A DNA stretch of 41,355 nucleotides from Candidatus Peregrinibacteria bacterium (GTDB lineage Bacteria > Patescibacteriota > Gracilibacteria > CAIRYL01 > GCA-016699755). Under the pieces are notes generated by a model, which was not told where the DNA came from, made no database searches, and was given only the letters and a program-made list of their open reading frames with translations. The DNA is taken from positions 1 through 41,355 of the forward strand of contig JANTGK010000008.1 of the NCBI GenBank assembly GCA_024762935.1, in the 5' to 3' direction. The position numbers and the translations under genes are program-made. Each line of letters opens with the position of its first letter. Position 1 is the first letter of the stretch. This document shows, in pieces, positions 17,201-41,355 of this stretch.

Positions 17201-19727
17201 TTCAAATGATGAATATATTATTCAGATAGTTGCCGGAGTACCAGATATGTCACATGCAAATACAATAGAGTATACCAAACTTGATAGTATTGGTATTTAT
17301 GGCGAGAATAGTGATGGACGAAGTCAGAATGACCCCCTTATTGCTGATGGAGATGACACTATGCGTCTTAACTTTACCCTCTATGATGTCTTTGGGAACA
17401 TCGTGAAAAAGGAATACAAATATGAAAACAATACGTATGAGTCTTTGAAAACTCCAGAGATGCGCGTCATCTTTTGGGATGAAGTCCTGCTCGATCAGGT
17501 TGAAAACAATGGAATTTCTGGTGAAGCAGTAACAATTAGTGGGGCTGCTCTTGATGGCGGGGCACCATTTTCAAATGATGGTATTCATCATAGTGTAGAA
17601 TTTGTCAATGGAAGTGTCGTTCCGACTGTACTGACTGAAGTTTCATCGATTGCTCCTTCAAACACATATAATTATCAAGTAAAGATTGCTCAAATTGAGG
17701 CAACGGTAACGCAAGATATAGATTCCCTTGATTTTTCTGATGTCGGACAAACAGATGCTCTTGCGAATGGAAAAAAAGTGTACATTCCGGCAGAGCCTGT
17801 TATTACATTTAGTCCGATTATTGCAGCCAATCTTGTGAATTTTGATGTATTTGCAGGGCAGGTGGTCAATACAACAGCAACTTTTTCTGTTGTGCTTACC
17901 AATGAGAGTGATCAGGTAGACATTGATACCTATGATTGGATGGGTATTGCTCGTTCACGAATGCCCGGATCTCTGCAAGGACTTCGAACATATGAATCAA
18001 CAACGCTAGAAAGTACAACGCCTTCATTTACGACAGCTATAAATGATCACTGGCAAGAAATAGCAAGTGTTGCTGCTGCTGGAACTTTTACAGGAGGTAT
18101 TACTGCGGGCCAATTTCCTCTTACTCTTGATGGAAAGATAAATACCGGTACGGATGAAATTAAGGTCTTTGAGAACAAATTTCCTCCTCTTGCGGCGGGA
18201 GATACATATGATTTTTTCTTTCATGCTATACCAAAAAATGAGCCTGGAGATGATGAAATGGCAGAATTTTTACATTATTTTGCTTTTCAACTTGCCGGAG
18301 CACAAGCAGGAAAAACCATAAAATTTCCTCTTCAAACCGCATCGAGCTCAGATCTTGGAACCAGTATAAAACTCTCTATTGCTGGTTCGACTCATGGTGA
18401 TGAATTTGATGAGTCTATTCTCGTGAGTGAGGGGGTAACAGATGAATATAGTTCTGTTGGTCAGATTTATGATCGACAAGAAATTCGAAAAATCATGTAT
18501 GAGAATTATCGTTCTATTACTGGTTTGCGACAACCAAAACCTCTTATTCCAGATGCAAATCTTAATGAAGTGAAAGCTCTCTCTACATGGACTGATTTGA
18601 ACACCGAAAGAAATACAACTCCTATTGCAGAACAATATCGAAGTCTTCTGAATGGAAAGGTGGTGTGGTATGAACGTGATGATACCCATGGGTCACTGAC
18701 AATTGACCTTGGAGATGATACAGAGAATCCATTTGATACTCCTTTCATCATTCCGCCTGATCAAGGACCAATTACTCTTATTGTACGAGGAGGAAATATC
18801 TATATTCGTGACAACATTTTTGTTGGGAAGGGAAGCAACCTTGGAATTGTTGTTTTGAGTTCTCGGAAAAATTCTTCTACAGGAACAGAAGGAAATATAT
18901 TTATCGATCCGTCCGTTACACATTTAGAAGGAGTATTCTATGCAGATGGTTCTCTTCTTTCTGCCGATGATATCGATGAGAGTAACCCCGAAACACCACC
19001 ACTTGTGCCTGATGGGATTATTACAGAAAATGAGATTTTTGATGGATTTTCAGTACCTCTTGTTGAGGAGAAATTTTCGAATCAACTCTTCATTAAAGGA
19101 AGTATTGTCTCACAGAATACAGCAGGAACACTCTCAAAAGTACACGGAGTAGTGGTGTTGCCAAACGAAATATGGCTTCCGGAAGAGTGTCCTACGCTTG
19201 ATGGGTCGGCGGAGACATGTAATGAATCTGCTGAGCAAGAAAAAGCAGCGAAACGCTATGATCTCGAATTTATGCGTCGCTTTATGCTCAGGAATGTTTT
19301 TGATGACACCGATGATGATGGTATTAAAGACTCTGCTGACTGTGATCAGACGCCACCTGCTTCAATAAGTTACGGGGCTTGTGTTGATACTGCTGGAGAT
19401 GGAAATTATTATAATAGTTCGTGTGAGACGGCCTATCATACACCAAAAAGTCAGGATGATATGCCAGAAGGATGTAAACGAAGTGTGACCAAAAAGATAT
19501 CACCTGATGCTGGACATTGTGCTGTTGGAACACCATGGTGTACTGACAAGGAAAATGATTCACCATTCACTCTTACAGGGTGTGGCGATATTAGTGCCTT
19601 ATGTACTTCAGACGGTGTACTTGATAATCCAAAAATGGGTGCAGCGGTTATTGTTGAGTTTGATCCAAAAGTGAAAAAGATTACCCCAGTGGGAATGAAT
19701 CTTCCTCCAGTTGTGAATTTCCAATAG
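14211..19727 (+). CDS. Very large secreted multidomain surface protein with GWI repeats and Ig-like/FN3 domains
   Basis: An 1838-residue protein. N-terminus: signal/anchor helix at about 15-37. Six short tryptophan repeats of the form WSxxxGWIxx occur in two groups (near residues 190-260 and 685-820). Between them lie about three fibronectin-III/Ig-like domains (about 300-400, 412-510, 518-640). Residues 890-1450 are beta-rich and Asp/Asn/Gly-rich. Residues 1520-1640 contain a repeated beta pattern (GGNIYIRDNIFVGKGSN, GNIFIDPSV, EGVFYADGSLL, QLFIKGSIVSQNT) suggesting a bactofilin- or beta-helix-like fold, closed by YDLEFMRRFML; this pattern recurs in large CPR surface proteins. Near 1697, DDTDDDGIKDSADCD is a calcium-binding thrombospondin-type-3-like loop. 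There is no C-terminal anchor or dockerin. Function unknown; probably surface or extracellular structural/adhesion. Confidence 0.85.
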   Translation: MNIFSVQNIWQKIWMTSVYALVIATILLSFPLGGRGAGEYVFTSNTVYLTQGQAISLSSENSGESASYNIVASLSTPTGGQVNQVVVEGVTITAGEAPVQVIAGYDFGIHGGVLTVDVTPVAGKYGIANLTFDLAGTGTGFQSIEIDTRISETGNIVSGQRYGKDAYGGLLDFDAPGAGKVAVTNTHVTGLIWSESFGWIDLQPPGGGVTHTSDGTNEALDGFAWNDDLGWIDFGQIDGSGGVYIDSAGYFQGTAWSENFGYLSFGDSMALDPTPDSLPTTVIDSTQWAKTSWSAGNSSAPTIVQVDPVDLTNFSSRTPTFSFHIEDADSWNKVGYTINVNKKNALNQWDSYKFETHLANLSVNATGENYTHTFATDFVPGQYQWEMWAYDEGGLWSETTGFLEFTILNGAPTVSLDSPADASTITFGNRRPQVSFTITEPDGDKIQYRVEFSEESDFSTILQQSSPLSGYLDAGSYSYTPSTNLPAGTIYWRVVVTDVFGASVATPVEYSFVIQNELPTISNISLRDNANAIIPNAGVTYDTTPTIQWESQDNDGVTMDTYIEVYEDPGVGSRDPSVDTLATVNSVPASLSFPHNAGLQERDIGPFAAGDYYYRIRTKDSDDDYSAWAIDPYQSFTVEARTEFGNVGTANIKGLYPNSMMDDSHDVPLSATPGAGYTDVDSSNNRSVWNKTVGWIDMNPVGGGVVVKNKKLQGYAWSDTLGWIRMNSEAFDTNIGITDSGGNPIGADAITYGVSNNDGNLTGKALIESTGNFLYFDEQSYIDDFPAAGPIGTNSEINVDILCDDNYKGHFTGWGYAPDTGWIAFGRQALIDSGYTANEAADYFSMTEWSCPIASGPVLESNNVYTLFAAQNTEDKSFSIAHKNTEAFSGDLVCSSNDGSQGTEVNIQKMNADGTVDTGVSFSDGVDFSVGCTNKNGDIDGRIWLTIDKSSTLLRTPGLYRIVGDVGDGNGETTAFPEHTPDEGHNFVADSENPGANSNDEYIIQIVAGVPDMSHANTIEYTKLDSIGIYGENSDGRSQNDPLIADGDDTMRLNFTLYDVFGNIVKKEYKYENNTYESLKTPEMRVIFWDEVLLDQVENNGISGEAVTISGAALDGGAPFSNDGIHHSVEFVNGSVVPTVLTEVSSIAPSNTYNYQVKIAQIEATVTQDIDSLDFSDVGQTDALANGKKVYIPAEPVITFSPIIAANLVNFDVFAGQVVNTTATFSVVLTNESDQVDIDTYDWMGIARSRMPGSLQGLRTYESTTLESTTPSFTTAINDHWQEIASVAAAGTFTGGITAGQFPLTLDGKINTGTDEIKVFENKFPPLAAGDTYDFFFHAIPKNEPGDDEMAEFLHYFAFQLAGAQAGKTIKFPLQTASSSDLGTSIKLSIAGSTHGDEFDESILVSEGVTDEYSSVGQIYDRQEIRKIMYENYRSITGLRQPKPLIPDANLNEVKALSTWTDLNTERNTTPIAEQYRSLLNGKVVWYERDDTHGSLTIDLGDDTENPFDTPFIIPPDQGPITLIVRGGNIYIRDNIFVGKGSNLGIVVLSSRKNSSTGTEGNIFIDPSVTHLEGVFYADGSLLSADDIDESNPETPPLVPDGIITENEIFDGFSVPLVEEKFSNQLFIKGSIVSQNTAGTLSKVHGVVVLPNEIWLPEECPTLDGSAETCNESAEQEKAAKRYDLEFMRRFMLRNVFDDTDDDGIKDSADCDQTPPASISYGACVDTAGDGNYYNSSCETAYHTPKSQDDMPEGCKRSVTKKISPDAGHCAVGTPWCTDKENDSPFTLTGCGDISALCTSDGVLDNPKMGAAVIVEFDPKVKKITPVGMNLPPVVNFQ

Positions 19728-24351: not shown

Positions 24352-24573
24352 CTAATCTTTTATCTGTAATCGTTCTTCTTTCTTTCCCTTTTTCTTTTCC
24401 TGTCTTTTTTCGTCCCAAACGACAAATCCAATAATTACTATTCCTATTACTCCTGCACTAATTGTAAGGGGATGGAGGTTGATAGTGGCAAAAATATTTT
24501 TTCCTCGAGAAATTCCCATAATAATAAAGGGGGCAATCATTAGGAGCGCTAAAGTGATACATTTTTTACACAT
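24352..24573 (-). CDS. Small membrane protein, unknown function
   Basis: A 73-residue protein starting MCKKC, with two hydrophobic helices (about 6-24 and 36-54) and a very basic, Lys/Glu-rich C-terminal tail (DEKRQEKKKGKKEE). The upstream in-frame GTG at 24597 would place the first codons inside the hairpin at 24592-24635, so I prefer the ATG at 24573. It is the last gene of the minus-strand surface cluster, but the hairpin separates it from the rest. No family is recognised; the CxxC at residues 2-5 is notable in such a short protein. Confidence 0.5.
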   Translation of the reverse strand: MCKKCITLALLMIAPFIIMGISRGKNIFATINLHPLTISAGVIGIVIIGFVVWDEKRQEKKKGKKEERLQIKD

Positions 24574-24591
24574 GGAAGTTTTTTTCTCTTG

Positions 24592-24635
24592 AATCACTTC
24601 ATCAGGGTGTTAATCACTCCTGTGATGAAGTGATT
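24592..24635 (-). repeat. 13-bp perfect inverted repeat between two cluster genes
   Basis: AATCACTTCATCA (24592-24604) pairs perfectly with TGATGAAGTGATT (24623-24635) across an 18-base loop. It lies 13 bases after the stop of the acidic membrane protein gene and 18 bases before the next gene's ATG. Neither strand has a clean U-tract after it, so it may be an RNA-stability or processing hairpin rather than a terminator. On the minus strand the loop contains AGGAG. Confidence 0.6.
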
Positions 24636-24648
24636 ATTTCCCCCCGCT

Positions 24649-25419
24649 TTATTTTTGAAATCTTTTTCGTGCAAAAAAAGCAGCAAATCCTGAAAAGGCG
24701 AGAACAGGAAGAAGTGGTAATCCTGTTCCAGGGCTCTCTTCTGCTGCGCTATGAAGTTGTTCAGCAGTAGCGAGCCGAGCGAGTTGAATAGGATCTACTG
24801 TTTCTCCGGTATGCGTATTTATGGGAAAATCATTTATTTCGGTAATTACTTCTGTTCCTGGTGTTTGAACGATTTCTTCTTCTGTATCGAGGATTACCTC
24901 AGGATCTGTAAATTCTATATCGGCAATCTTCTTTGTGGGGTTGGGTGTTTGAGGTTCATCGGAGGCTACTGTTTTGGGTATGGTTGGCTGTACCACGGTT
25001 TCTACTGGTTGAGTCTCTTCAGCTATAGGATGAGTGACTTCAGGTTGAATAGGGTCTATATCGATTTCAGTACCTTCTTCACCATCTGCGGTAACCTCGG
25101 GAACATTGATTTCTACTGGTTCTGCTATCAATTCATCACCATCCGCAAAGTTGGCATTTTCTACGACAGGCATGTATATTTCTTCATTTTGTGAAGAATC
25201 AGAAGTATTGAGTCCCAAAAAAGCAGAATAATTTTTAGAGTCATTTCCCGAAAAGAGAAATGGTGCTGCTCCAATGAGTATGAGAAATACTCCGACACTC
25301 GCGAGTGCGAGAGCTATTTTTCTATTTCGTGCAGACTCTGGCTGATCTGTAGATGATGTATCTCTCTTGTCCTGAGGAGATTTTTTATTATCAGTGACTG
25401 TTGTCCATTGATTTTTCAT
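24649..25419 (-). CDS. Acidic surface protein anchored at both ends
   Basis: A 256-residue protein. A hydrophilic N-terminus (1-33) is followed by a transmembrane helix at about 34-56. A long spacer (60-225) is rich in Glu, Asp, Pro, Thr and Val, reads as disordered and carries strong negative charge. The C-terminus has a short GTGLP-containing motif, a second helix (about 233-250) and a basic tail (ARKRFQK), resembling tripartite C-terminal sorting signals although it is not LPXTG. The spacer should lie outside the cell. It follows the cohesin/FN3 gene by 24 bases. No domain is recognised. It may be a membrane-proximal spacer or docking partner of the cohesin-dockerin proteins encoded upstream; this is an inference from position. 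Confidence 0.7.
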   Translation of the reverse strand: MKNQWTTVTDNKKSPQDKRDTSSTDQPESARNRKIALALASVGVFLILIGAAPFLFSGNDSKNYSAFLGLNTSDSSQNEEIYMPVVENANFADGDELIAEPVEINVPEVTADGEEGTEIDIDPIQPEVTHPIAEETQPVETVVQPTIPKTVASDEPQTPNPTKKIADIEFTDPEVILDTEEEIVQTPGTEVITEINDFPINTHTGETVDPIQLARLATAEQLHSAAEESPGTGLPLLPVLAFSGFAAFFARKRFQK

Positions 25420-25443
25420 GTTTGTATAAAGAGAAAAAAGGTT

Positions 25444-26610
25444 TTATTTGCGACGAAAAGCGTATCCGAACAGTGCAAGCCCCATGCTAATAATCATAAA
25501 AAAGAGAATATGTTCGGGGCCGGAATCAACCGTTTTATCTGCATTTTCCATGTCGATATCTTTTGGTGTTTTATTTTCTGTTATTGCAGAAGTATCTGAA
25601 TGATCTATTTTTTGTGCATTTGGATCTCCTGTAAAACCATGACTTTCACTACCAGGAAGTCCAACGGTTACAAATACTTCATTTGAATATTCACTTTCTT
25701 GATCAATTTGATCATAAGCTTTTATAGCAAAGAAATATTTTTCTCCAGATGGAAGGTTTGGGAAAAGAGCAAAATTTGTCTTTCCAACATCTCTTCTTCT
25801 GAGGTAATACCCACTTTTTTGGCTGTAGTAGAGGTAGTATCCAGCAATATTAGGATCCTCGTTAATTGGCCAAATAAGTCGAACATTTCCTTGGTCATCT
25901 GTTTGGATTCGAAGTCCTACTGGCTGTTCTAGAGCAGAGCTATTTTTGATTGGGGCGATTACTCCCCCTGTTTGGCTTCCTCCAATGTCAACCCTAGGGA
26001 GAACGGCTCCTCCCACAGGTGGCACAGTACTATTTTGACTAGGAATTCCAAAAATGAGTGGTTTTGGCTCTTCTTTTAGTCTATTTTCTGCTGTAATCCC
26101 ACTCGTAAAAAAGATTCCCGTATCACCAAGTTCAGTATGTTGATAATTAATGAATTTGAGGCTTGCTCCACTCGTAAGGGGTTGAAGAGTGAGAGTTGCT
26201 ACATGAAACTTTTCATTACTTTTTGAGCCTCCAGTAAGAGAAAGTCCAATATTTACGGTTCCTTCGTTTTCATCTATGGTGTTTGAAAAAGGCTCTGGAA
26301 ACGTAAAGTCTGAATCTTCAATATTAATATCTTTTACGAGCAGTGTTTTACTGTCAAATTTTAGTTTTGCATGAACAGAGGTGACCATTTCTCTTTTTGG
26401 GTTGTCGATGACGAGGTCAATAAGCATTGGCTCCCCCGTAAAATGAGAAACAACAAACTCTTCTTGCTCCTCTGGAATATCAGGAACACACGTTGGGTCT
26501 GAATCTTCGCAGTGGAATTGAAATGTGAATTGGAGATGATCTGATGAGGCAAAAGTTGTCCCGGAAAAGAGAAGGAAAACGCCGATCACGAGAATACTAA
26601 GGCGCTTCAT
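25444..26610 (-). CDS. Membrane-anchored cohesin-like / fibronectin-III surface protein
   Basis: A 388-residue protein with a signal peptide at 1-21 (ending TFASS). Residues about 58-175 have the cohesin-like pattern: LIDLVIDNPKREMVTSVHAK (first strands), LKFDSKTLLV, a Gly/Ser loop with VNIGLSL, then VATLTLQPL. Residues about 227-315 form a fibronectin type III domain (VRLIWPINEDPNIAGYYLYY; FFAIKAYDQIDQESEYSNEV). A low-complexity linker leads to SGPEHI, a transmembrane helix at about 365-383 and the basic end FRRK, so the cohesin would be displayed at the membrane. It overlaps the preceding lipoprotein gene by 4 bases (ATGA). It has no dockerin and no catalytic domain. Likely role: membrane-side receptor for a dockerin-bearing protein of the same operon. 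Confidence 0.78.
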   Translation of the reverse strand: MKRLSILVIGVFLLFSGTTFASSDHLQFTFQFHCEDSDPTCVPDIPEEQEEFVVSHFTGEPMLIDLVIDNPKREMVTSVHAKLKFDSKTLLVKDINIEDSDFTFPEPFSNTIDENEGTVNIGLSLTGGSKSNEKFHVATLTLQPLTSGASLKFINYQHTELGDTGIFFTSGITAENRLKEEPKPLIFGIPSQNSTVPPVGGAVLPRVDIGGSQTGGVIAPIKNSSALEQPVGLRIQTDDQGNVRLIWPINEDPNIAGYYLYYSQKSGYYLRRRDVGKTNFALFPNLPSGEKYFFAIKAYDQIDQESEYSNEVFVTVGLPGSESHGFTGDPNAQKIDHSDTSAITENKTPKDIDMENADKTVDSGPEHILFFMIISMGLALFGYAFRRK

Positions 26611-27248
26611 GATTGTGGTGAAAGAGGAAGGGTCGGAACCGAAGGCTCCAAGAGGATGTCGCGAAACATGTTGTCTCCTACTTTTTCAAAGACAACAGTT
26701 TTTTTACTGGATCCAAATCCGTAAAAGTCGATTGATGTAAATGACGGTTTTATTCGAGAGAACGTAATCAGTGCAATTGTTATTTCTTTCTCAGTAGAAA
26801 CACTTCCATCAGATGTTGAAATGCCAATTTTCGCTAATCCATTTTGATGATCAAAGGTATTTTCTCCAGGGGCAGTAACCGAAAATGGTGAATTTTTTGG
26901 GATAGTAATAGATTTTCCAGAAAGAATATCAGGATGAAAAGCAAGGAAACTTCTGACAGCGGATATTTCTTTTTGTTGTGGATTATGAAGGATGAGCTTT
27001 GTAACGACTTCTGAGCGCGTGTCTTTTTCAGTGACAAGTTCTAATGAGGCACTTCTTTGATTATCTATATCTTTCTTTCGAGAATTAGTAATCATAGAAA
27101 CAAGACGACTTTCTGTTTCTGACTCTTCTTTTGAGGGGGCACTTTTTGTCTCTGAGTGTGAATTTGGTGATGAGAGAGGTTTCTCTTGTGATGTTGCACA
27201 AGAAGAGAGAAGAAGAGTGATTCCGATCAAGAGGAATAATTTTTTCAT
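26607..27248 (-). CDS. Cohesin-like lipoprotein
   Basis: A 213-residue lipoprotein: Lys-Lys, a hydrophobic stretch, and lipobox LSSC with Cys17. A Ser/Glu-rich linker covers residues 18-60. Residues about 65-190 show a cohesin-like beta pattern: VVTKLILHNPQQKEISAVRS, FLAFHPDILSG, LAKIGISTSDGSVS, ITIALITFSRI, parallel to the domain in the next gene (LIDLVIDNP..., VNIGLSLTGG..., VATLTLQPL). The stop/start overlaps on both sides are 4 bases (27245-27248 and 26607-26610), so translation is coupled to the giant gene and to the anchored cohesin gene. The cohesin assignment rests on strand pattern and neighbours; another Ig-like fold is possible. Confidence 0.7.
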   Translation of the reverse strand: MKKLFLLIGITLLLSSCATSQEKPLSSPNSHSETKSAPSKEESETESRLVSMITNSRKKDIDNQRSASLELVTEKDTRSEVVTKLILHNPQQKEISAVRSFLAFHPDILSGKSITIPKNSPFSVTAPGENTFDHQNGLAKIGISTSDGSVSTEKEITIALITFSRIKPSFTSIDFYGFGSSKKTVVFEKVGDNMFRDILLEPSVPTLPLSPQS

Positions 27249-30200
27249 TGAAAGTTCGGATAAAATGTATTTGGCATGACTGGCTCATCTTCGATGGGAG
27301 CTGTCCTTTTCTCTTTTTTAGGCTTCAGTATATCTAAGAAGGTCGTTTTTTCTGGGTTTTCTTCTGGCGGATTCATGTCTGTTGGATTATCTTTGGCATC
27401 GGTGTCTTCAGGGATTTTTTTATTCAAATCGACACTTTCAGAAAACCTTGGTGTTCGATCTGCAACAGTTTCATAGGTGAGTCCATACTGTTGTGCGAAG
27501 ACGGAAAAGTCTAAAAAGTCTACTTTGCCATCTTTGTTAAAGTCTGAATCGGGAAGATTCTTTCCATTTGATCCATACTGTTGTGCGAAGACGGAAAAGT
27601 CTAAAAAGTCTACTTGGAGGTCATCATTAAAGTCTGCATTGAGAAATGGATTTTGAATAAAAACATTTGAACTTGCGGCACCAGTTGTTACGCCTAGTGG
27701 AACTTCGCCATCTTCTGTATTGGCGTAGTTTTCTTTTATTTCTGTTGAGGCAACAACGGTGTTCGTGACCATTCCTTCTGAGATGGCAACAAATCGTGTG
27801 AGGAATGTGTATGTTTGCCCAGGCCCGAATGAGGGGATAAGACAATCAATCTGAGAGACATCATTCTGGCAAGAAAATGATCCTAATGGCTCTACTTCAA
27901 GGAGTTTTATAAGCTGCTGAGGAAAATCATCAGTAATGGACACATTTTGAAACATCTGACCTTCAGTTCTATTGGTAATGGAGATGCGAAATTCAATTTC
28001 TTCATTTATTCCCATATCGACCTTGTTTGGTGTTTTTTTGATTAAAAATGGATTTCCAGGGTCGATAACAGCCACATTGGCACTGGAGACACTGAGTGTT
28101 TTGTCTTCACTGATAGCAGAAATAGTATTTGTAGCGAGACCAGGTGAGATTGCCTTAAATTTTCCTACCATAGTGTAGTCAGCTCCAGGTGGAATCTCAT
28201 CAATGACACACTGTATTTCTGACTCATCATTTCCACATGAGAACGCATCTGATGTATTTATTTCAAGTACTTGAATGATATCGCTCGAGAATGTGTCGAG
28301 AAGAACGACATCGTGGAGTGCTTTTTTATTATTTTCATTACTGATGTGGATGGTGAATTCTACATTTTCTTCAAGACTTGCTATCTCTTTGTCTACTGTT
28401 TTTGTGATAACAAATGGATTTTTTCCATAACTAGAAAATGCTGAAAATGTCTTTATATCAGTTCCTTTTCTCAGTTTTTTTCCGGTGTAATCAATAAGAT
28501 CTGTTGCCCGAAGGATATAGACAGATTCAGGAACCTGGACACCAGTAGAGAGGGTAATGGTATGGTCATTTTTAAATTGTGCCCCACGTACAGGGAGCAC
28601 CTTCCCTGACCCTTTTGCGGTAATGCTGAAGTTTGCTCCATCAGTGAGAAGGCTTGAAAATCGAAGTGGCTTTCGGAAGACGACTTCAATAGCATTTGGG
28701 CTAACGGAGGTCACCTTTTCTATCTCAAAGAAGAGCTTTCGTTCATGAATAGTTGGAACAGTGAAACTCGCTTGGTTATCCGTTTGTCGGATTTGTCTGA
28801 GTCCAAGCTGTTCAGCGTCAGCAAAGAGTGTAAATCGGTCTCCTTCATTCATATAATTTGTTCGAAGGGTTACTACTTGTCCATCAGTTCTAATATCGAT
28901 GTCTTTTATAGGGAGATGTGTGTAGATATCATTAAAGAACGAAAGAGTAAATGCATCACTTCTTATCTTATCGGGATTAACAGAAGAACTGAAAAAAGCT
29001 TGCACTTCATTTTTTTCTGTTGCTACGGCAGAGACAAGATGGGGAAGATCTTGTAGAGCGAGCGGAAGGGTACCATCGCTCACAAAAATAGGAACTTCAG
29101 CTTCAGCTTTTCGACCATCAGTATCGGTTGCTACTACCGAGATAAAATATGGATTCTGACTTGCGGGAACATCTTTTCGAACGGTGAGGTCTGGAAGATA
29201 GAACCACCTTCCTCTGCTTCCTTCTGAAACAGATGGAATCATACATCCAAAGGTATCTGTTGAAACACATCCTGGTACGGTAATAGGGTCTCCCTCAACG
29301 GGGGGATCCTTTTGATCTTCTTCTCCTTCTTCTTTGTCATCTTTTGCGGGTGTAGCACCATCAGCAATGGTAAAATCTTTCTGTATACAAACTCGTTCAT
29401 TATTTATCCAATAACATCCATCATCAATAATTTCTTCAGCTCTTGCTGTTGGAAAAAGGGAAGCCTGAGGAGCTGGTATTTTTTTCCCACCATCAGTTGT
29501 GTTGAGTTGTTCTTGCAAGAGTTCTTCTTTCTTTTTTTTCTCTGCATCCTCTTCTTGTTTAATATCTGTTATTATTTTTTCTTTGATGAGTCTATTATTT
29601 TCCTCTGGAGTAATGTGTCGGAGTATTGTTCCAAGGTTTGCAGTGACATGGGTAATAGGGGCGTCTCCTTCCTCGACAAAGACGTACAGTGTTCCTCTTG
29701 CATCTTGGTCATTTAAGAAGGTCCGCGGGTTCGTATATGATCGATCAGCAGGAATAGTCGGACTATCTCCAGATGTGTCTGGTGTCGAGACATGAAAACG
29801 AAATCCAGTTTCGGTCACATTTCCATCAATGTCTGTTGCAGAAACAGTAAGGGTTCTGAATCCAGGGATAACTGATCGAGGGATAGTTAGTTTTTCTGTT
29901 GCATACCACGCCCCTGTTCCTTCGATTTGACCTTTGGTCATTTCCAAAGGAGGTAGTCCAATGGGTGCGAGGTTTACCGAAACAGAAACAATATCTTCAT
30001 GTCCATTTGGATCTGTTGCTTTTGCAAAGACCTGAAATTCGGTTTTATTGTCATTTGGGATGGAATGTTTTGGTGAGACAAAAATATCATTTTCATTTAT
30101 TTGAGGTGATCCGGTCGAGTCTCTCGCAATCCGAAGAGTAATTTCTCCAACTGCTTCTGTTCCTTCACGGTCTATGGCAGTAAGAGGAAGAGTATAGACT

Positions 30201-33200
30201 CCTTCTGGTACCCAGTTAGGAATTTTATATGGATCACTCTGATACCAAATTTTGTTTCCAAATATGGTAACAGCATGAGCTTTAGGAATGAGAAAATCGA
30301 GTGCTCTCATAAGTGCCTGTCCATCAGTGTTTTGAAGGTAAATATTACAATCACGCCATTGAGAATTTGGTTTGTTGGCTTCTCCAACACAGGTAGATGT
30401 TGGTTTTTTGTGCCACTGTTTTTCTTGACGATAGAGGTAACATTCACCCCACTCCTCATCTTGTTCCCAGTCAGCTGTGCTGCATTCTCCACCAGTACAG
30501 TCTCGTCTCTCCTCAGGTTTTTTTCCGACCTCAAGACATTCTATTCCAGGTTTAAGTTCTACTGAACGCATTTGTACTCCCAGAACACAATCTGTCCACG
30601 GTTCAATAACATAATCGTTCCGTGAGCATTCTCGGTCTTCTTGAATTTCGTCAAGTGGCTGGAGAACGATAATTCCAAGTCCTACTTGGGAGGCATCAAG
30701 GACAACACGAGAAACATTGATTCCTCCATCTTCATCTGAGATTTCAACCTGAAATGTTACTTCTGTTTCATCTCCGGGAGAGACCTGGTCAGGAGCTGCA
30801 GTCGCATTTTCAATAACGGGAGGAAGACTCGATTCGAGATCTCGATTTACAAGAAGTGTGACAACACCAGTTCCGGTTCTTCCGGTCTTATTCTCAACAG
30901 TGATAGGAATTTCTGTGGCCTCTTTTGATGTTGGGATAGTGCTCGGAACGGTAATCTCTCGTTTGTACCAAGCCATTCCATCTATAAAAGCCATATCATT
31001 GACTTTTTTGATAATCGCACCACCCTCATCCCAGCGATCGGGATCAGAAGTAGAAGTTTCTTCAAGGTGATGAAGTGAAAGTGAAACAGCAGCTGGTCCT
31101 CCTATTCCTCGGAGATCAGCAGTGACCTTTTCAATATCTGAGACTCCTCGTGGATCTTTGATTCGAACCCAAAGGGTGCTTGATGTGACACCATCATTGG
31201 GAACCCGATATGGCATTGCATATGATTCCTCTGAGAGTACGAGAGGAGCCATCTGCGCTTCTATTTCTGAATTGATGACGGTAACTGCATTTGGTAGTCT
31301 GCTCTCATCACCAGCTGGAGAAACGACGACAATATCATAGGAATCCATTTTAAGATCCTCTGGCGTTTCAATATTGAGCTGAGTATCAGAGATAAAAGTT
31401 GTAGGAAGGGTTTGGTTTCCTATCCTGACAATACTGTTTTCTGGAAAGTGAACCCCTATTATGGTTACTTGTGTTTTTTCTCCGATTTGAACCTCTTTTG
31501 GCGAGAGAGATACAGCTCGCATCTGCTCTTGAGAATATCCGACAAACCCTCGACTATTCGGAATCCCTAGTGTTTCTCCGTAGGCACTACGAACGCTTTC
31601 GGGGAGGACAACAGCAGAATAGGATTGTTTTTGTTTCTGAACTTGTGTCACAAGAGTAATACTATTGCCTTTTCCTTCGGCAGAAATAATCTTTAGTTTT
31701 CTGGGGAGTTCTGCAGTATCTTTTGTCCAGATTTGAAATTGAAGAGGCGAGAAAGTTTTTGCTTCGATTTCTTCAGAGAATGTCAACACAACAGTGTCTG
31801 GAGATGTCGCTTCTGCTGATTCAAGTCCAAAATCCCAGGGAGTAAAGAAACTTCCTTGTCCAATAAATGATTCGATATTTCCAATAAGACTTATAGCAGC
31901 ATTTCCGTCACGGTTTGATTTAATGCTTCCTGGTCGTATGGTCATGACATAATTTCTTCCAGCAACGGTTCGTACATTGTGAAAAATAATACTCGTGTGA
32001 TCTGGTGAGATTTCAAAAAATGTCTCAGAAGTAATAAGGTTTTGGCTTCTTCCTTGCTCAGTAATGCTAAAAGCATCAAGGACAATCGAACTTCCGAGTA
32101 CAGGAGTGTCAAAAGTGACTTCGACAACATCTGGTTTTCGAGCAGAAATATTGTCGATTACAGGACCATCAGAGTTATACCCAAAAGGGGTAAAGCGAGC
32201 GATATTGAGAGAGAGTAGTTCACCCGCAGTTGATTTTGGATCATGAATGTTGCTTGCCTTATTAATGGTGAGCCAACTGCTTCCACCAAGAATCGCTTGA
32301 GAACTTGTATGAAGAGTAACATTCTTTCCACCAGACTGATTGGCTGCCAAAACCGTCAATCCTTCTATATGGAAATCTTCTGCTTCGATAGATTCGGGAT
32401 TAACCGGTTCCGTGAAGCCGATTACTACAGAGGTGTCTGAGGTTGCTTGTACATTTTGAATCTGGAATCGGCTGATGGGGTATTGTAATGGGAATCCCTG
32501 AAAGAACATATAGTTATGATCAGGAGAAAGAGTACCAGCAATATTTCCAGTGATATGTTCCTGAAGTTCTACTGAATAGAGCTCATCAGGAATCATGGTT
32601 GTAAGATTCCGTATGATAATACTGTTGCCATCAACCTCAAATTCAGTCGAGCTATTTTTTAGTCGAGGAGTAAAAGTAATATCAGTAAGGTCAGCAGCAA
32701 TAATATTATCAGAAAATATGAGTCGTATACTGCTTGATGAGAGAGGGATACTATCAATAAGACGGAGTGAGCTTACCGGACTTGTGAGAATAGTTCCAGA
32801 ATCGACATTCACAGGTACCAAGCCAAGGGTAAAGGTATTGACGGTATCCATTTTTCGAATCGAAAGGGGAATACTCTCTCCGAATGGAACATTATCATGA
32901 ACAAGGAATCGTAAAGCGAGAAGAGGGTCACTAAAATCAAGATTTACTCCATCTAGTGAGCCAGTAGCACCGAGGATTCCTATGTGATTTTGCAGGGAGT
33001 CTTCTGTAATAAATGCAAAACCCGCGTCTTCAAGGGGAGTTCCTACTGTTTCATATCCAAGAAAATCCATTTTAGACTCTGGATATTCCAAGTCGAACAT
33101 AAAACCAGCAATATCTTGTTGTGTGCCTGATCGAAGAAGAATAACTCTTTCCTCTCCTGGTTTTGCCAAAATATCATCTTCAAAGTAAAACTCACCGGTA

Positions 33201-33805
33201 AATTGTTGTTGGAGATTTGGATTTTTCGGATCTCCTACTCGGATTATACCGCTTTGAATGGAGCTGAGGGTATAGCTCTGAAGAATAGCACTGTCATAGA
33301 CAATTTCTACATTTGAAAGTGTGATAGGTATCTCATCACCGAGTTCAGTATTTTCTCGGATAGAGAACATAATATTGAGAAGATCTCCATCAGTAGGGAC
33401 AGATAGCCCGGTAGCTCCTCCTGTCCAGACAGCAACTTGAGCAGTATTGCTCATGGGGTCATTGGTAACGGTGATATCAAAGTCGGTATTCTCAAATATG
33501 GTCTCATCAAGAACGGCTCCTAAAAATTCAACTTTTTCTTTTGGCCATGAAAAGTCGAAATAGATGCCCATCAAATCATCTCTTGCAAAAAGTGGAAAAT
33601 CATCTCCTGCACGGACGACAATCTCACCATTTTCGCCAGGGTTTGCAATAAAATCATTTGGAATAAACACCTGCTCACTACTCGTCTGTTGTGTATGCGT
33701 AAAGAGACTCGCTGAGAAAAATTTTTCAGAGAGACCTACAAAAAATGATATCACGAGGAAAGCGAGGATCAATAGGCCGAAAAAGAATCCTTTTTTATTC
33801 TTCAT
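27245..33805 (-). CDS. Giant surface protein with N-terminal cohesins and C-terminal dockerin
   Basis: A 2186-residue secreted protein. Signal peptide at 1-33. Two cohesin-like domains at about 45-192 and 200-340 (each begins IANPGE/LAKPGE, with GIYFDFSWPKEKVEFLG and GFMFDLEYPESKMDFLG). About four SbsA/Big-type Ig-like modules lie at 343-760 and an IPT/TIG domain at 761-846. Further Ig-like modules include a Cys-rich thrombospondin-1-like insert at about 1052-1153 and a Lys/Glu coiled segment at about 1398-1437. Two DUF11 domains are at about 1800-1915 and 1920-2030. A type-I dockerin lies at about 2055-2112, with two calcium loops DFNDDLQVDFLD and DFNKDGKVDFLD, each followed by FSVFAQQYG. 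A Pro/Lys-rich tail covers 2113-2186. No hydrolase or SLH domain seen. Role inferred: scaffold or fibre that can bind and be bound. Overlaps by 4 bases with both neighbouring genes. Confidence 0.85.
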   Translation of the reverse strand: MKNKKGFFFGLLILAFLVISFFVGLSEKFFSASLFTHTQQTSSEQVFIPNDFIANPGENGEIVVRAGDDFPLFARDDLMGIYFDFSWPKEKVEFLGAVLDETIFENTDFDITVTNDPMSNTAQVAVWTGGATGLSVPTDGDLLNIMFSIRENTELGDEIPITLSNVEIVYDSAILQSYTLSSIQSGIIRVGDPKNPNLQQQFTGEFYFEDDILAKPGEERVILLRSGTQQDIAGFMFDLEYPESKMDFLGYETVGTPLEDAGFAFITEDSLQNHIGILGATGSLDGVNLDFSDPLLALRFLVHDNVPFGESIPLSIRKMDTVNTFTLGLVPVNVDSGTILTSPVSSLRLIDSIPLSSSSIRLIFSDNIIAADLTDITFTPRLKNSSTEFEVDGNSIIIRNLTTMIPDELYSVELQEHITGNIAGTLSPDHNYMFFQGFPLQYPISRFQIQNVQATSDTSVVIGFTEPVNPESIEAEDFHIEGLTVLAANQSGGKNVTLHTSSQAILGGSSWLTINKASNIHDPKSTAGELLSLNIARFTPFGYNSDGPVIDNISARKPDVVEVTFDTPVLGSSIVLDAFSITEQGRSQNLITSETFFEISPDHTSIIFHNVRTVAGRNYVMTIRPGSIKSNRDGNAAISLIGNIESFIGQGSFFTPWDFGLESAEATSPDTVVLTFSEEIEAKTFSPLQFQIWTKDTAELPRKLKIISAEGKGNSITLVTQVQKQKQSYSAVVLPESVRSAYGETLGIPNSRGFVGYSQEQMRAVSLSPKEVQIGEKTQVTIIGVHFPENSIVRIGNQTLPTTFISDTQLNIETPEDLKMDSYDIVVVSPAGDESRLPNAVTVINSEIEAQMAPLVLSEESYAMPYRVPNDGVTSSTLWVRIKDPRGVSDIEKVTADLRGIGGPAAVSLSLHHLEETSTSDPDRWDEGGAIIKKVNDMAFIDGMAWYKREITVPSTIPTSKEATEIPITVENKTGRTGTGVVTLLVNRDLESSLPPVIENATAAPDQVSPGDETEVTFQVEISDEDGGINVSRVVLDASQVGLGIIVLQPLDEIQEDRECSRNDYVIEPWTDCVLGVQMRSVELKPGIECLEVGKKPEERRDCTGGECSTADWEQDEEWGECYLYRQEKQWHKKPTSTCVGEANKPNSQWRDCNIYLQNTDGQALMRALDFLIPKAHAVTIFGNKIWYQSDPYKIPNWVPEGVYTLPLTAIDREGTEAVGEITLRIARDSTGSPQINENDIFVSPKHSIPNDNKTEFQVFAKATDPNGHEDIVSVSVNLAPIGLPPLEMTKGQIEGTGAWYATEKLTIPRSVIPGFRTLTVSATDIDGNVTETGFRFHVSTPDTSGDSPTIPADRSYTNPRTFLNDQDARGTLYVFVEEGDAPITHVTANLGTILRHITPEENNRLIKEKIITDIKQEEDAEKKKKEELLQEQLNTTDGGKKIPAPQASLFPTARAEEIIDDGCYWINNERVCIQKDFTIADGATPAKDDKEEGEEDQKDPPVEGDPITVPGCVSTDTFGCMIPSVSEGSRGRWFYLPDLTVRKDVPASQNPYFISVVATDTDGRKAEAEVPIFVSDGTLPLALQDLPHLVSAVATEKNEVQAFFSSSVNPDKIRSDAFTLSFFNDIYTHLPIKDIDIRTDGQVVTLRTNYMNEGDRFTLFADAEQLGLRQIRQTDNQASFTVPTIHERKLFFEIEKVTSVSPNAIEVVFRKPLRFSSLLTDGANFSITAKGSGKVLPVRGAQFKNDHTITLSTGVQVPESVYILRATDLIDYTGKKLRKGTDIKTFSAFSSYGKNPFVITKTVDKEIASLEENVEFTIHISNENNKKALHDVVLLDTFSSDIIQVLEINTSDAFSCGNDESEIQCVIDEIPPGADYTMVGKFKAISPGLATNTISAISEDKTLSVSSANVAVIDPGNPFLIKKTPNKVDMGINEEIEFRISITNRTEGQMFQNVSITDDFPQQLIKLLEVEPLGSFSCQNDVSQIDCLIPSFGPGQTYTFLTRFVAISEGMVTNTVVASTEIKENYANTEDGEVPLGVTTGAASSNVFIQNPFLNADFNDDLQVDFLDFSVFAQQYGSNGKNLPDSDFNKDGKVDFLDFSVFAQQYGLTYETVADRTPRFSESVDLNKKIPEDTDAKDNPTDMNPPEENPEKTTFLDILKPKKEKRTAPIEDEPVMPNTFYPNFQ
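27482..27615 (-). repeat. 44-bp perfect direct repeat inside the dockerin
   Basis: Bases 27482-27525 and 27572-27615 are identical over 44 bases, 90 bases (30 codons) apart. They encode the shared VDFLDFSVFAQQYG part of the two dockerin calcium-binding halves. The lack of synonymous differences points to recent duplication or gene conversion. Confidence 0.95.
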
Positions 33806-36318
33806 TTCAGATAGTTTTTAAGAAGGGTACGAAATTCAACCATAAAATCACGAATGCTAATGCCATTGAGACCATCATGGTCAAGTGCGAGTTCCTGAAG
33901 GCTTGATGCGGTCGTGTTTCCACTAATGATCCGCATGGTTAAAACAGCATCAACAAGATCAACTGATTCGTTGAGGTCTGCATCTCCAGAAATCGGATCT
34001 CCAATATAGAGGGGGAGGACTGCTTGTACAGAGTTTTTTAGAGCAAGTCCGTTCGCATTTCGAACGGTAAGTTCTAATGTATGTTTTCCTTGTGTAATAT
34101 CATCAAGAAGTGGAATAAAGAAGGGGATTTGCAAGAGAACAGTTTTCTTTTCTTTATTTTCAGCAATGATATTCTCTGGAAGGATTTCAATGGAAAAGTG
34201 TTGCACATCTGCTGGAATGCTTTCGGGAGTATCGTAGCTACCACGAATAAGGTTGAGTTCTATGTCTCCAATATTTTCGAGAGTTCCAAAGTGACGAAGT
34301 CGAACAAAAAGAGTGTCAGAAGTTCCTTTTGCAAATCCCTGATTCCCAGCTGTTCGAATAGAATCGATATATGGGACGGGGTCACCAATAAGAATACTGA
34401 TTTCATCTGAAATTATTTCTGTAAATTTCTGAGTAATATTACTCTCTCCAGGGAATGCGATTTTTTCCAATACTTTTGCACGAATAGAAAATGTTCCTGT
34501 CGCTAGTGGCTCTAATATTCCTTGTGATATATTTCCTTCGCTAGAATTTGATGTCCATGCACCACCGTTGTAGCTAAATTCCCATGTGATTCCATCTTCG
34601 GTATTTGCCCGAAGAGATCCATCAGCATAGGTATTTTCGGCAGTAAGAGTGACATGATCTGCTTGAGGAAGCTCCAGAACGTTGGTAAATGGATTTCCAG
34701 ATTCATCAAGAATTGTAATTTTATCGAGTGCAGGAGGGAGGACGTGAATAGTTATATTTCTAATATTATTATTTTCATCAAACATCTGAAGGAGTGCTGT
34801 TCCTTCATTCTCTGTAGATTCAAAAACAACAGAATCTTTGTCGTAGCAGATCATTCCGATACCAGAGTCGTCACATGGAAGATTGGTCGTGACATCTCGG
34901 AGTATGCCAAGGGATTTGTCTTCAAGAAACCAGTTGAATACTCCATCTCCTCCAAGACCAGAAAAGATGATTCGATTATATTTTGCACGAACGTTGTAAC
35001 CGGCCTCTTCAGCTCCTACAGAAATGGGGTTGGAATACGTCATTGTGTCTGTTCCTCCTCCAGTTCGCACGGGGAAATTCTGTACTATATTTCCATCGAT
35101 ATCTGTTCCGGTGTTGATATCACTAATGACCTTTATCGTCACGGCATTACTGGTAACACCATTATATGTAGCGGTAATATTTGCTATTCCTGCTTGGGTT
35201 GTAGTGAGGACATTCCCGCCAAGAGTTCCAATGTTTTGGTAATTGAAAAAATTTGCCGTATCTGTGACGTCTTGTTCATTTGCAAAAAGATAAGAAGCGA
35301 TGACCGTAAAGAGGCATTGCTGTCCAATGAGGGTATTTCTCCCTTCACAACTGCTGCTCAGACGAAGAGATTCTATTTCTGAATCAACCACTTTTACGCT
35401 GGCACCAGTGCTCCCTTCTGCAGATTCAGCACTTGAGAGTGTAAGCGTATTTGCTGCTGTTCCAGACTGAATTCCTCGGTATGTGGTCAGTATTGTTTCT
35501 GTCGCACCGGGGGCGAGACTCAGCATGTTACATCTGATTTCACTGACATCATTTTGACAATTAAGCCCAGCACTTTCCTGAACACTGAGGAGCTGAAGAT
35601 TATTTTCTGGAAAATCATTAACAACATTGATATCGGTCAATACTTGAGCATCAGTTCTGTTTTGAATAGAGATATTAAAGTTTACTTCTTCACCGACTTC
35701 TATTATTGGCTTATTGGGTTCTATTGAAACAAGAAAAAGATTTCCCGGGTCTGCAATAATGATACTCGATGAAACCGCAGCAGTATTTGTATCTTGATCT
35801 GTTACAGTAGCGATGTTTGTTGCTGTTCCTGGTGCAAGGGCAGTAAATTCTGCGGTAACAGAAGCACTTTCTCCTTCATCAAGACTGAGCATATTACATC
35901 GGATCTCAGTAGCATCGATAATACAATTAAATCCAGTGGCTGCTGTAATAGCATTTGCTTGTAAAAAAGTTTCTGGAAAATCATCGACCAGAAGTATGTT
36001 GTTGACGGCAAGGGGTACCGGAGGAAGATCTGGTGGTGCCGATGGATCTTCTGTACTTTTGTTGGTAACAGTAATGGTATAAGAAACCGTCTCACCGACA
36101 TCTACTGTTGTTTTATCAGGAGATTTCGTAATGAGAAGAGCGCCAGAGTCTGCCAAGAGGTTTACAGAATTTGTAGTGGTATAGCTTAGTCCGGTGTTTT
36201 CATCTTCAATAGTTATATTACTGAGTATAGAACTCTCAGCTTTTGAAGAGAGAGAGTTTCCTAGAAATATAATACTTGGAAGTATGAGAAGTGCCGAAAG
36301 AAGGAGTGTTTTTTTCAT
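33802..36318 (-). CDS. Secreted DUF11 / Ig-like protein with C-terminal dockerin-like module
   Basis: An 838-residue protein with a signal peptide at 1-27 (ending SKAES). Two DUF11 (conserved repeat) domains lie at about 56-190 and 194-312, each starting with a SPDK/EPNK...VGETVSYTITV-type strand and each with a Cys pair (CIIDATEIRC, CQNDVSEIRC). A bacterial Ig-like (Big-type) domain at about 314-400 carries two further cysteines; more beta-rich modules extend to about 770. The C-terminus (about 778-838) is dockerin-like. Its first half has the calcium loop DADLNESVDLVD followed by a helix. Its second half (LDHDGLNGISIRDF) is degenerate at loop position 5. It overlaps the giant gene by 4 bases. 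Role inferred: dockerin-bearing partner for one of the cohesins encoded in the same operon. Confidence 0.8.
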   Translation of the reverse strand: MKKTLLLSALLILPSIIFLGNSLSSKAESSILSNITIEDENTGLSYTTTNSVNLLADSGALLITKSPDKTTVDVGETVSYTITVTNKSTEDPSAPPDLPPVPLAVNNILLVDDFPETFLQANAITAATGFNCIIDATEIRCNMLSLDEGESASVTAEFTALAPGTATNIATVTDQDTNTAAVSSSIIIADPGNLFLVSIEPNKPIIEVGEEVNFNISIQNRTDAQVLTDINVVNDFPENNLQLLSVQESAGLNCQNDVSEIRCNMLSLAPGATETILTTYRGIQSGTAANTLTLSSAESAEGSTGASVKVVDSEIESLRLSSSCEGRNTLIGQQCLFTVIASYLFANEQDVTDTANFFNYQNIGTLGGNVLTTTQAGIANITATYNGVTSNAVTIKVISDINTGTDIDGNIVQNFPVRTGGGTDTMTYSNPISVGAEEAGYNVRAKYNRIIFSGLGGDGVFNWFLEDKSLGILRDVTTNLPCDDSGIGMICYDKDSVVFESTENEGTALLQMFDENNNIRNITIHVLPPALDKITILDESGNPFTNVLELPQADHVTLTAENTYADGSLRANTEDGITWEFSYNGGAWTSNSSEGNISQGILEPLATGTFSIRAKVLEKIAFPGESNITQKFTEIISDEISILIGDPVPYIDSIRTAGNQGFAKGTSDTLFVRLRHFGTLENIGDIELNLIRGSYDTPESIPADVQHFSIEILPENIIAENKEKKTVLLQIPFFIPLLDDITQGKHTLELTVRNANGLALKNSVQAVLPLYIGDPISGDADLNESVDLVDAVLTMRIISGNTTASSLQELALDHDGLNGISIRDFMVEFRTLLKNYLK

Positions 36319-36348
36319 ATGTATTTTTTGTTTTTTTGGAGTTATCTC

Positions 36349-36918
36349 TTAAGGACTGAGACTCTCTTTTTTGGTTCGAAGGAGAACACCACTTGTTTGG
36401 AAAAATGATCCACTAAATGTTATCGGTTGTTGGAATGTTCCATCAAAAATCATGGTAAAGAGAGGTTCTTGGCTGGCAACAACAGGTGTATACGAACCAG
36501 CTGTAATAGAGAAAGGGTGGTAGTAGACGATTGGTTTATCTGTTTCTATGCCATCAAGCTCAGCAGTAAACCCCGTTGGGGTGACGACTTCCACGAGCTT
36601 CATTGTTTCTGGGAGATTCATTTCAAGAGTAACGGTGTCGACTATGTCTGCTTTACTCACATTATTCAGAAAAACAGGGATACGAATACCAGTCTCTGTT
36701 TTTTGTATTTGTGCAGATGAGAGAGTGATTTCTCCTGGAAAATTATTTGCTTTGAGAGAAATATTTTTTTGACCAAATGTATGTGCTGGAGAAGAGATTT
36801 CTTTCTGTGGTGTTTGCACAGGAGCTGTTTCTGATGGCACACCCTGTGGTGCAGTGCAGCCAGTCAGGACAGCAATACAAATGGTAACACCTGCTCCGTT
36901 GATTATATGATTTTTCAT
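36349..36918 (-). CDS. Cohesin-like lipoprotein, first gene of the surface operon
   Basis: A 189-residue lipoprotein with lipobox LTGC (Cys21). After a Pro/Thr/Ser linker, residues about 50-180 have a cohesin-like strand order: GEITLSSAQIQ, GIRIPVFLNNVSKADIVDTV, LEMNLPETMKLVEVV, SITAGSY, PLFTMIFDGTF, ITFSGSFFQTSGVLL. I start at the ATG at 36918. The frame is open 15 codons further, but the promoter at 36954-36983 overlaps that extension, and the lipoprotein signal begins at MKNHI. Thirty bases separate it from the dockerin-like gene downstream. Probable role: lipid-anchored receptor that holds dockerin-bearing proteins at the membrane (inference). Confidence 0.72.
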   Translation of the reverse strand: MKNHIINGAGVTICIAVLTGCTAPQGVPSETAPVQTPQKEISSPAHTFGQKNISLKANNFPGEITLSSAQIQKTETGIRIPVFLNNVSKADIVDTVTLEMNLPETMKLVEVVTPTGFTAELDGIETDKPIVYYHPFSITAGSYTPVVASQEPLFTMIFDGTFQQPITFSGSFFQTSGVLLRTKKESLSP

Positions 36919-36953
36919 ATACTTCTTTTTCGAAAAAACAAATTTTTCATAAG

Positions 36954-36983
36954 ATTGTAGCATTTCAGGGTCCTCTGGAGCAA
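36954..36983 (-). promoter_or_regulatory. Promoter of the cohesin-dockerin operon
   Basis: Minus strand: TTGCTC (36983-36978), an 18-base spacer, TACAAT (36959-36954), with an extended -10 TG one base before it. The expected start near 36947 leaves about 29 bases before the ATG at 36918, with a weak AAGAAG ahead of that start. Confidence 0.5.
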
Positions 36984-40601: not shown

Positions 40602-41355
40602 CTATCGAATCTGCTTGAGGGTTTTATGTCCATTACTGCTGGACTCCATTTCAAGGCAGTATCCACCGTAGAACCTATCCTGGTGAGTTCTCCATTTTTG
40701 AGGAATAAAAATTCGGTATTTTCCATTTGCAGGAAGAGTCATTGACATTTCTTGAGAGAGAGTGCCTGTTACAGTTTTTTTAAATCGTACATCTCTGATG
40801 CGGTCATTAACTCTCATCTTTACTGCATTACCATTACTGATGCCTTCATAATCAGGATCGACCGTCATCCGAAGAGTGACTTGTTCATGTGCTGATCCAG
40901 AAAAAGTGAATACATCTCTGTCTCCTCCATAGCCAAGAGTGGTACAAACTGTTTGTTCACCTGATGATGCTTCACACGCATCACCAACTCCATCGTTATC
41001 AGCATCTGCTTGCCACTGATTTGGTACTGCAGGGCAGTTATCTGTATTATCAGGTACGTTGTCGTTATCACTATCTAATGGTGTACCAGTGATTACAGGA
41101 ATAAGTGATTTGCTTCCTCCTCCTCCATTTCCGAGTTGTCCAAACCAATCTTCTCCCCAGCAATATACATCTCCATTTGATCGGTATCCGCAGCTATGAT
41201 TCATTTCACTTCCAATACTGGCCCAATCCGTATATCCACCGGCAACTTCCGTTGGTACAAGGCGTTGAGTGGTGGTTCCATCACCGACTCGACCGGAGTC
41301 ATTTTTACCCCAGCAGTATCCTTGTCCATTTGCTCGTACTCCACAAGAGTAATGA
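40602..41355 (-). CDS. RCC1-repeat / thrombospondin type 3 secreted protein, 5'-truncated by the window edge
   Basis: About 250 C-terminal residues are visible; the frame is open to the last base of the window. First come RCC1-like propeller repeats: HYSCGVRANGQGYCWGKNDSG and, 50 residues later, MNHSCGYRSNGDVYCWGEDW with GQLGNG. Next is a thrombospondin type 3 calcium-binding segment (DSDNDNVPDNTDNCP, DADNDGVGDACE). The last 115 residues form a beta domain like bacterial pre-peptidase/PPC C-terminal domains (DRDVFTFSGSAHEQVTLRM; GKYRIFIPQ). The internal ATG at 41204 is not the real start because the repeat pattern runs through it. It is probably an extracellular, calcium-stabilised binding protein. 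No C-terminal anchor seen. Confidence 0.85.
   Translation of the reverse strand, partial: HYSCGVRANGQGYCWGKNDSGRVGDGTTTQRLVPTEVAGGYTDWASIGSEMNHSCGYRSNGDVYCWGEDWFGQLGNGGGGSKSLIPVITGTPLDSDNDNVPDNTDNCPAVPNQWQADADNDGVGDACEASSGEQTVCTTLGYGGDRDVFTFSGSAHEQVTLRMTVDPDYEGISNGNAVKMRVNDRIRDVRFKKTVTGTLSQEMSMTLPANGKYRIFIPQKWRTHQDRFYGGYCLEMESSSNGHKTLKQIR

Follow-up and report, generated by a model that had tools for sequence, protein, structure and literature searches.

A probable enzyme-free surface assembly encoded by a cohesin and dockerin gene set in the Gracilibacteria

Do cohesins and dockerins encoded side by side in a bacterium of the candidate phyla radiation (CPR) belong to a cellulosome, or to a surface structure of another kind? 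The question is raised by seven consecutive minus-strand open reading frames (ORFs; 24352–36963), designated A, B, giant, D, E, F and G, in a 41,355-bp stretch of DNA (the window) that makes up an entire contig (G000:C8) of a 1.376-Mb, 95.8% complete genome. The products of the set are exported or membrane proteins. We conclude, with a probability of roughly 0.6, that the product of the operon is a calcium-dependent, non-enzymatic assembly on the cell surface, joined by cohesin–dockerin bonds. The genes and modules on which this conclusion draws are as follows.

Gene A, 36349..36918, minus strand: beta-rich lipoprotein with lipobox LTGC; the start is an internal ATG of an ORF that reaches 36963.
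Gene B, 33802..36318, minus strand: secreted protein of 838 residues with a signal peptide, two DUF11 domains, an Ig-like middle, an X-like pre-dockerin module and a C-terminal dockerin.
Gene B dockerin, 33811..33990, minus strand: loop 1 canonical, loop 2 with Leu at position 5.
Giant, 27245..33805, minus strand: 2186 residues with an N-terminal hydrophobic segment (putative anchor), two cohesins, Big_5, TIG and other Ig-like repeats, two DUF11 domains, a dockerin and an acidic, proline-rich tail.
Giant, first N-terminal cohesin-like domain (residues 45–196), 33218..33673, minus strand: 27% identity to the second domain; profile–profile match.
Giant, second N-terminal cohesin domain (residues 203–346), 32768..33199, minus strand: AlphaFold model and PDB structure matches.
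Giant, two DUF11 domains (residues 1797–2021), 27743..28417, minus strand: 34% identity to the DUF11 pair of gene B.
Giant, C-terminal dockerin, 27446..27637, minus strand: two canonical calcium loops, DFNDDLQVDFLD and DFNKDGKVDFLD.
Gene D, 26607..27248, minus strand: lipoprotein (lipobox LSSC) of 213 residues with one cohesin domain.
Gene E, 25444..26610, minus strand: 388 residues with a signal peptide, cohesin, fn3, C-terminal hydrophobic segment and basic end (..SGPEHILFFMIISMGLALFGYAFRRK).
Gene F, 24649..25419, minus strand: 256 residues with an N-terminal Trp motif, a transmembrane segment, a Glu/Pro-rich region, an NTHT motif and a C-terminal hydrophobic segment.
Gene G, 24352..24597, minus strand: 81 residues with two predicted transmembrane helices.

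Cohesin and dockerin modules of the operon

A first-pass annotation of the window had attributed cohesin domains to four of these proteins, of which three (E, D and the N-terminus of the giant) are supported as cohesins by profile or predicted structure. In Pfam searches of the seven proteins, B and the giant both matched DUF11, the giant also matched TIG and Dockerin_1, and E had Cohesin and fn3 matches below the cut-off. The Cohesin match in E (PF00963) had an E-value of 4.4e-4, and its orthologues exceeded the Pfam cut-off (8.8e-7 in G001 and 8.4e-12 in G362). In hhalign, 133 columns of the D-family profile aligned to the cohesin of the E family at a probability of 99.9% (E-value 1.3e-35). 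An alignment of the giant N-terminal region matched the cohesin profile of the class at 91–95% in profile–profile comparison, and a PDB sequence search with the giant N-terminal domain returned 11 chains, 10 of which were cohesins (best E-value 0.0016). The second domain of the giant was modelled by AlphaFold with a predicted local distance difference test (pLDDT) score of 86.5 and a predicted TM-score (pTM) of 0.81; all 50 PDB matches listed by Foldseek for this model were cohesins, the best being CaCohA2 (E-value 1.6e-9, TM-score of about 0.7), with which ScaB cohesin 6, OlpA and CipA ranked, and 2xdh was also among those listed.

Gene A, the fourth protein, was not confirmed. It had no Pfam match, no convincing homologue in the eight other genomes of the order, and nothing beyond the lipoprotein signal in common with the D and E families by hhalign. 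The second match of a single-sequence model of A (pLDDT 59.6) was the cohesin-like structure 2jh2, with a probability of 1.00 but an E-value of 0.013 and a TM-score of 0.40, and this weak match to a low-confidence model makes a cohesin-like fold in A possible.

The two C-terminal dockerins that had been described, in the giant and in B, both stood up. The giant dockerin was found by Pfam at an E-value of 5.8e-4 on the protein and at 1.3e-5, above cut-off, in a genome scan, and the best PDB match to the profile of the giants was the cellulosomal GH48 dockerin 2y3n_B (E-value 1.8e-5); of the two F-hand calcium loops that define type I dockerins (PF00404), the giant has both. The dockerin of B was sub-threshold in Pfam (E-value 0.10) and was established by alignment to its relatives: the last 190 residues of B align end to end with the C-termini of six dockerin proteins encoded by five related genomes, one of which reads TGA as glycine, and these relatives score above or slightly under the Pfam dockerin cut-off. 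The aligned region consists of a conserved pre-dockerin module of ~130 residues followed by the dockerin, an arrangement that we take to resemble the X–dockerin dyad of type II cellulosomal dockerins. Across the whole genome, PF00963 matched E only and PF00404 matched the giant and B only; since the sole matches lie inside the operon, the partners of these modules are probably encoded there as well, and the modules most likely bind one another.

Several features bear on how the proteins may be held at the cell surface. In addition to the lipoproteins, E and F carry a C-terminal hydrophobic segment followed by a basic tail; ahead of the segment stands [T/S/N]GP in most E and F proteins and VPGETG in family f6. 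Two sortases are encoded in the genome, and the E and F tails would, as far as their sequence goes, resemble a sortase signal. The giants begin with a long hydrophobic segment, behind 35–85 polar residues in several genomes of family f11, which suggests that this segment is an uncleaved membrane anchor. An LFxADL-like motif follows just after the N-terminal hydrophobic segment in the giants, the f11 dockerin proteins and the F proteins (23 of 87 system proteins compared to 15 of 352 others, in a redundant set); lying outside the hydrophobic segment, it is a possible processing or docking signal. Two motifs stand out in the alignment of the gene F family: NTHT, which is invariant and precedes the hydrophobic segment at the C-terminus, and Trp-x-Thr at the N-terminus. 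Pfam found no known domain in gene F.

The seven-gene series and its compact layout, both noted in the first pass, were borne out by the ORF listing. Exactly three junctions overlap by 4 bp, namely B/giant (33802–33805), giant/D (27245–27248) and D/E (26607–26610), and the remaining intergenic gaps measure 30, 24 and 51 bp. The promoter placed at the head of the operon was not upheld: 24 sigma-70-like sites were found compared to 28.7 expected from shuffled sequences, and no minus-strand site lay upstream of gene A. The host had been proposed to belong to the CPR, and most likely it is a CPR bacterium of the Gracilibacteria/Peregrinibacteria lineage, judging from its nearest named relatives, which are Candidatus Gracilibacteria bacterium McD1.9 (G001) in its own family and, in its order, the uncultured Candidatus Peregrinibacteria KTt_bin-1341. 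The standard genetic code fits the window, and some relatives of the same class read TGA as glycine.

Conservation of the gene set across the class

Homologues of the giant were present in eight of the nine genomes of the order; whole-protein searches beyond the order found the giant in 2 of 380 phylum genomes, one of which was the source genome. Locus maps show that the same gene order reaches far wider than whole-giant homology. The order giant-D-E-F was seen in G001 and, preceded by a dockerin protein, in G362, G419, G413, G444 and G391, while G424 has giant-D-E and G448 has dockerin protein-giant-D-E. The order dockerin protein-giant-D-E-F is also kept in Candidatus Gracilibacteria PL25b_bin.48 (L104:7068-17041), a genome that reads TGA as glycine and in which four of the five genes require code 25 to be open, the gene for lipoprotein D being open under both codes. 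Conserved synteny, which the first-pass annotation had left to be sought in other genomes, thus recurs throughout the class, even between genomes that differ in genetic code, and the conservation of gene order exceeds chance. Gene F is conserved 3' of E. No counterpart of gene G was recognised in the compared loci, and its membership of the operon is doubtful.

Smaller arrangements of the same modules occur elsewhere in the class. Most of the 20 loci of family f6 (L120-L139) encode a transmembrane and dockerin protein of ~104–146 residues directly 5' of an E-type cohesin–fn3 protein (a few loci had no detected dockerin ORF), and the E-type gene is followed by one for a transmembrane protein laid out like F. 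Profile comparison did not show homology between this following gene and gene F of the window, the two being alike in layout and position only. At L128:5608-7626, for example, a transmembrane-tethered dockerin of ~104 residues is followed by a cohesin–fn3 protein with a VPGETG tail, and this two-gene unit is probably the simplest cohesin–dockerin pair; for this large family as a whole, the minimal pair joins a membrane-tethered dockerin of ~108 residues to a cohesin protein. The next gene at that locus (L128:7623-8681) gave sub-cut-off cupredoxin-like Pfam matches (E-value 1.2e-4), which could represent a beta-sandwich artefact or a copper site. Families f5, f8, f9 and f167 encode a lamin-tail/cohesin/dockerin protein of ~500 residues, usually followed by a cohesin-like transmembrane protein of ~250 residues.

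Proteins that combine a cohesin and a dockerin in one chain numbered 39 ORFs class-wide, a set redundant by locus, and fall into at least three architectures. At the genome level, PF00963 was found in 54 of 73 dockerin-positive (PF00404) and 41 of 169 dockerin-negative genomes of the class (odds ratio 8.9, p 8e-13, with the smaller sample assumed to be nested in the larger and kinship ignored). What recurs throughout the class is a core of two proteins, one with a dockerin and one an E-type cohesin protein; some lineages add the giant and D.

Other genes were observed near these loci or elsewhere in the window. In some relatives, cohesin or giant loci adjoin pseudopilin-like genes with a GFTLVE motif, at L061:8640-17213, L088:1-1639 and L092:13184-15442, the first of which also has a gene resembling, by eye, a pilus or secretion ATPase; these neighbours may indicate a link to export or to a pilus, or may be due to chance. 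In the window, positions 14211-19727 encode a second very large exported protein (1838 residues, Ig-like) without cohesin or dockerin, downstream of an M15 peptidase gene, and an ORF at 40602-41354, truncated by the contig end, contains a repeat (HYSCGVRANGQGYCWGKNDSGRVGDGTT) that appears RCC1-like by eye.

Surface assembly, attachment or degradation

Absence of enzymes was claimed from the outset and was borne out by Pfam, which found no hydrolase (glycoside hydrolases included), peptidase or carbohydrate-binding module (CBM) in the seven operon proteins. No enzyme catalytic domain was detected in the giant by Pfam or PDB sequence profile, and a Pfam scan of 16 proteins taken as dockerin proteins from relatives likewise gave neither hydrolase nor peptidase nor CBM. 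The domains it recovered were dockerin, Big_2, TSP_3 and EGF-like ones together with further small domains (a few of the 16 score as dockerin only with a model built from the class, not with Pfam). Because the same genes, for the most part identically arranged, are found again in distant relatives, and enzymes are lacking, the product is probably a surface rather than a digestive structure.

Such an assembly would be anchored by lipid, by membrane segments and possibly by sortase, and we infer its binding pairs, form (fibre, coat or cell–cell bridge) and role along the following lines. The cohesin pair of the giant lies near the N-terminal hydrophobic segment and its dockerin ~1700 residues away, near the C-terminus. 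D and E, and possibly F, would act as surface sockets, and the giant would be a long, Ig-like rod held by its N-terminus, the distal dockerin of which would plug into a cohesin of D, of E or of another giant; B would then be a side subunit plugged into the remaining cohesins. Since cohesins and dockerin share one chain, loops or chains are possible in principle, and giants could in this way build up a fibre or coat, either on a single cell or linking it to its neighbours. The earlier proposal of lipid- and membrane-bound cohesins as bases and dockerin proteins as bricks remains plausible, with lipoprotein D and membrane-tailed E displaying cohesins, but needs to be changed in two respects: the giant, which carries both module types and looks N-terminally anchored, would be both base and brick, and the dockerin protein of family f6 is itself membrane-tethered.

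Some results weigh against an assembly of this kind. The operon cohesins are divergent, with ~15% identity to solved cohesins, and certain cohesin-like modules elsewhere have no known dockerin partner. Compared directly by hhalign, the giant N-terminal set and the E-family cohesins reached no more than a weak 2–12%, and the E-family profile found no match in the giant N-terminus as a single sequence, although an alignment of that region did match the class cohesins. The second calcium loop of B is atypical (DHDGLNGISIRD), with a Leu at position 5 that is also found in two of its relatives, and an LPXTG profile (NCBIfam) did not match the E and F tails. Strict linkage is not universal either: family f154 has its genes spread over different contigs, as in G388, where dockerin proteins, giant and D lie on one contig and E-F on another.

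The alternative that survives best is an attachment organelle, in which the giant and B would serve as adhesins towards a host or partner cell, with cohesin–dockerin bonds doing no more than fastening them to the surface. Ig, DUF11, fn3, TSP_3 and EGF-type domains in the dockerin proteins are typical of adhesins; a dockerin-domain protein is among the essential envelope proteins of a Saccharibacteria epibiont, where host-glycan targeting was proposed (PMC10633639), and giant non-cellulosomal dockerin proteins of Omnitrophota have been proposed as adhesins (PMC10066038). We consider this role rather unlikely, as neither a recognisable ligand-binding domain nor a hypervariable tip was found, and it is compatible with the surface assembly favoured here, from which it differs in role and not in architecture.

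A cellulosome-like degradative complex, in which cohesin scaffoldins would recruit secreted hydrolases encoded elsewhere, is very improbable. The operon has in common with the cellulosomes of Clostridium, Acetivibrio and Ruminococcus (types I–III) the cohesin fold, Dockerin_1, surface-anchored cohesins and an X-like module before the dockerin of B, cohesins and dockerins being the cellulosome modules. However, it differs from them in several ways: enzymes and CBMs are absent, each cohesin chain has one or two such domains where a scaffoldin would have long arrays, the giant bears cohesin and dockerin together, and one cohesin is on a lipoprotein; its relatives differ further in their membrane-tethered dockerins, and the f6 dockerin protein is a transmembrane segment and a dockerin alone. 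The only dockerins detected in the genome, those of the giant and B, are on non-catalytic proteins, and the cellulosome reading was rejected for want of any enzyme. Cohesin and dockerin modules reportedly also occur outside cellulose degraders, and the Archaeoglobus cohesin 2xdh among the structure matches of the giant cohesin is a likeness to such non-cellulosomal modules, which differ in being isolated, whereas here cohesin and dockerin genes form an operon conserved across the class.

Equally improbable is a reading in which the dockerin-like EF-loops serve a structural purpose, stabilised by calcium, the cohesin-like domains are ordinary beta-sandwiches, and the proteins do not bind each other through cohesin–dockerin contacts. 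In its favour, EF-hand-like loops occur as TSP_3-type calcium repeats in relatives, the cohesin matches are remote, and a single dockerin loop is kept in the giants of f11 and L104. Against it, a dockerin-only protein is paired directly with E in family f6, cohesins and dockerins co-occur across genomes, and the structural matches are mainly to dockerin-binding cohesins.

Implications for CPR surface biology

When cohesins and dockerins turned up in CPR metagenomes, they were taken as evidence of cellulosomes. The Shapirobacterales genome of PMC9123182 is a close case, being a CPR organism with both module types, reported as expressed; the passage that interprets them as a cellulosome does not describe gene order or architecture. 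Another likeness is found in other Gracilibacteria families (L080-L099), where lamin-tail domain, cohesin and dockerin are carried on one chain, usually beside a cohesin-like transmembrane protein, but these proteins differ from the operon in their size (~500 residues), their lamin-tail domain and the lack of a giant and of a lipoprotein cohesin. A study of five complete Peribacteria genomes emphasises large exported proteins and sortase and does not mention cohesin or dockerin (PMC4736985), and no description of the locus was found in the full-text literature, a coverage that excludes subscription journals.

The locus argues that, in one CPR class, cohesins and dockerins are parts of an enzyme-free surface structure. 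Going further, they may constitute a self-linking, enzyme-free coat or cell–cell adhesion system that is ancestral to much of the Gracilibacteria class, in which membrane-anchored rods, their base bearing a cohesin and their tip a dockerin, polymerise on cells or form bridges between them, and which was kept through the change of genetic code; we offer this tentatively, at somewhat less than even odds. The divergent cohesin–dockerin pairs could be used in protein engineering, and the operon provides a concrete set of proteins for expression and binding tests, which makes the surface architecture of an uncultured group testable. The degree of conservation suggests that this gene set has an important envelope or attachment function.

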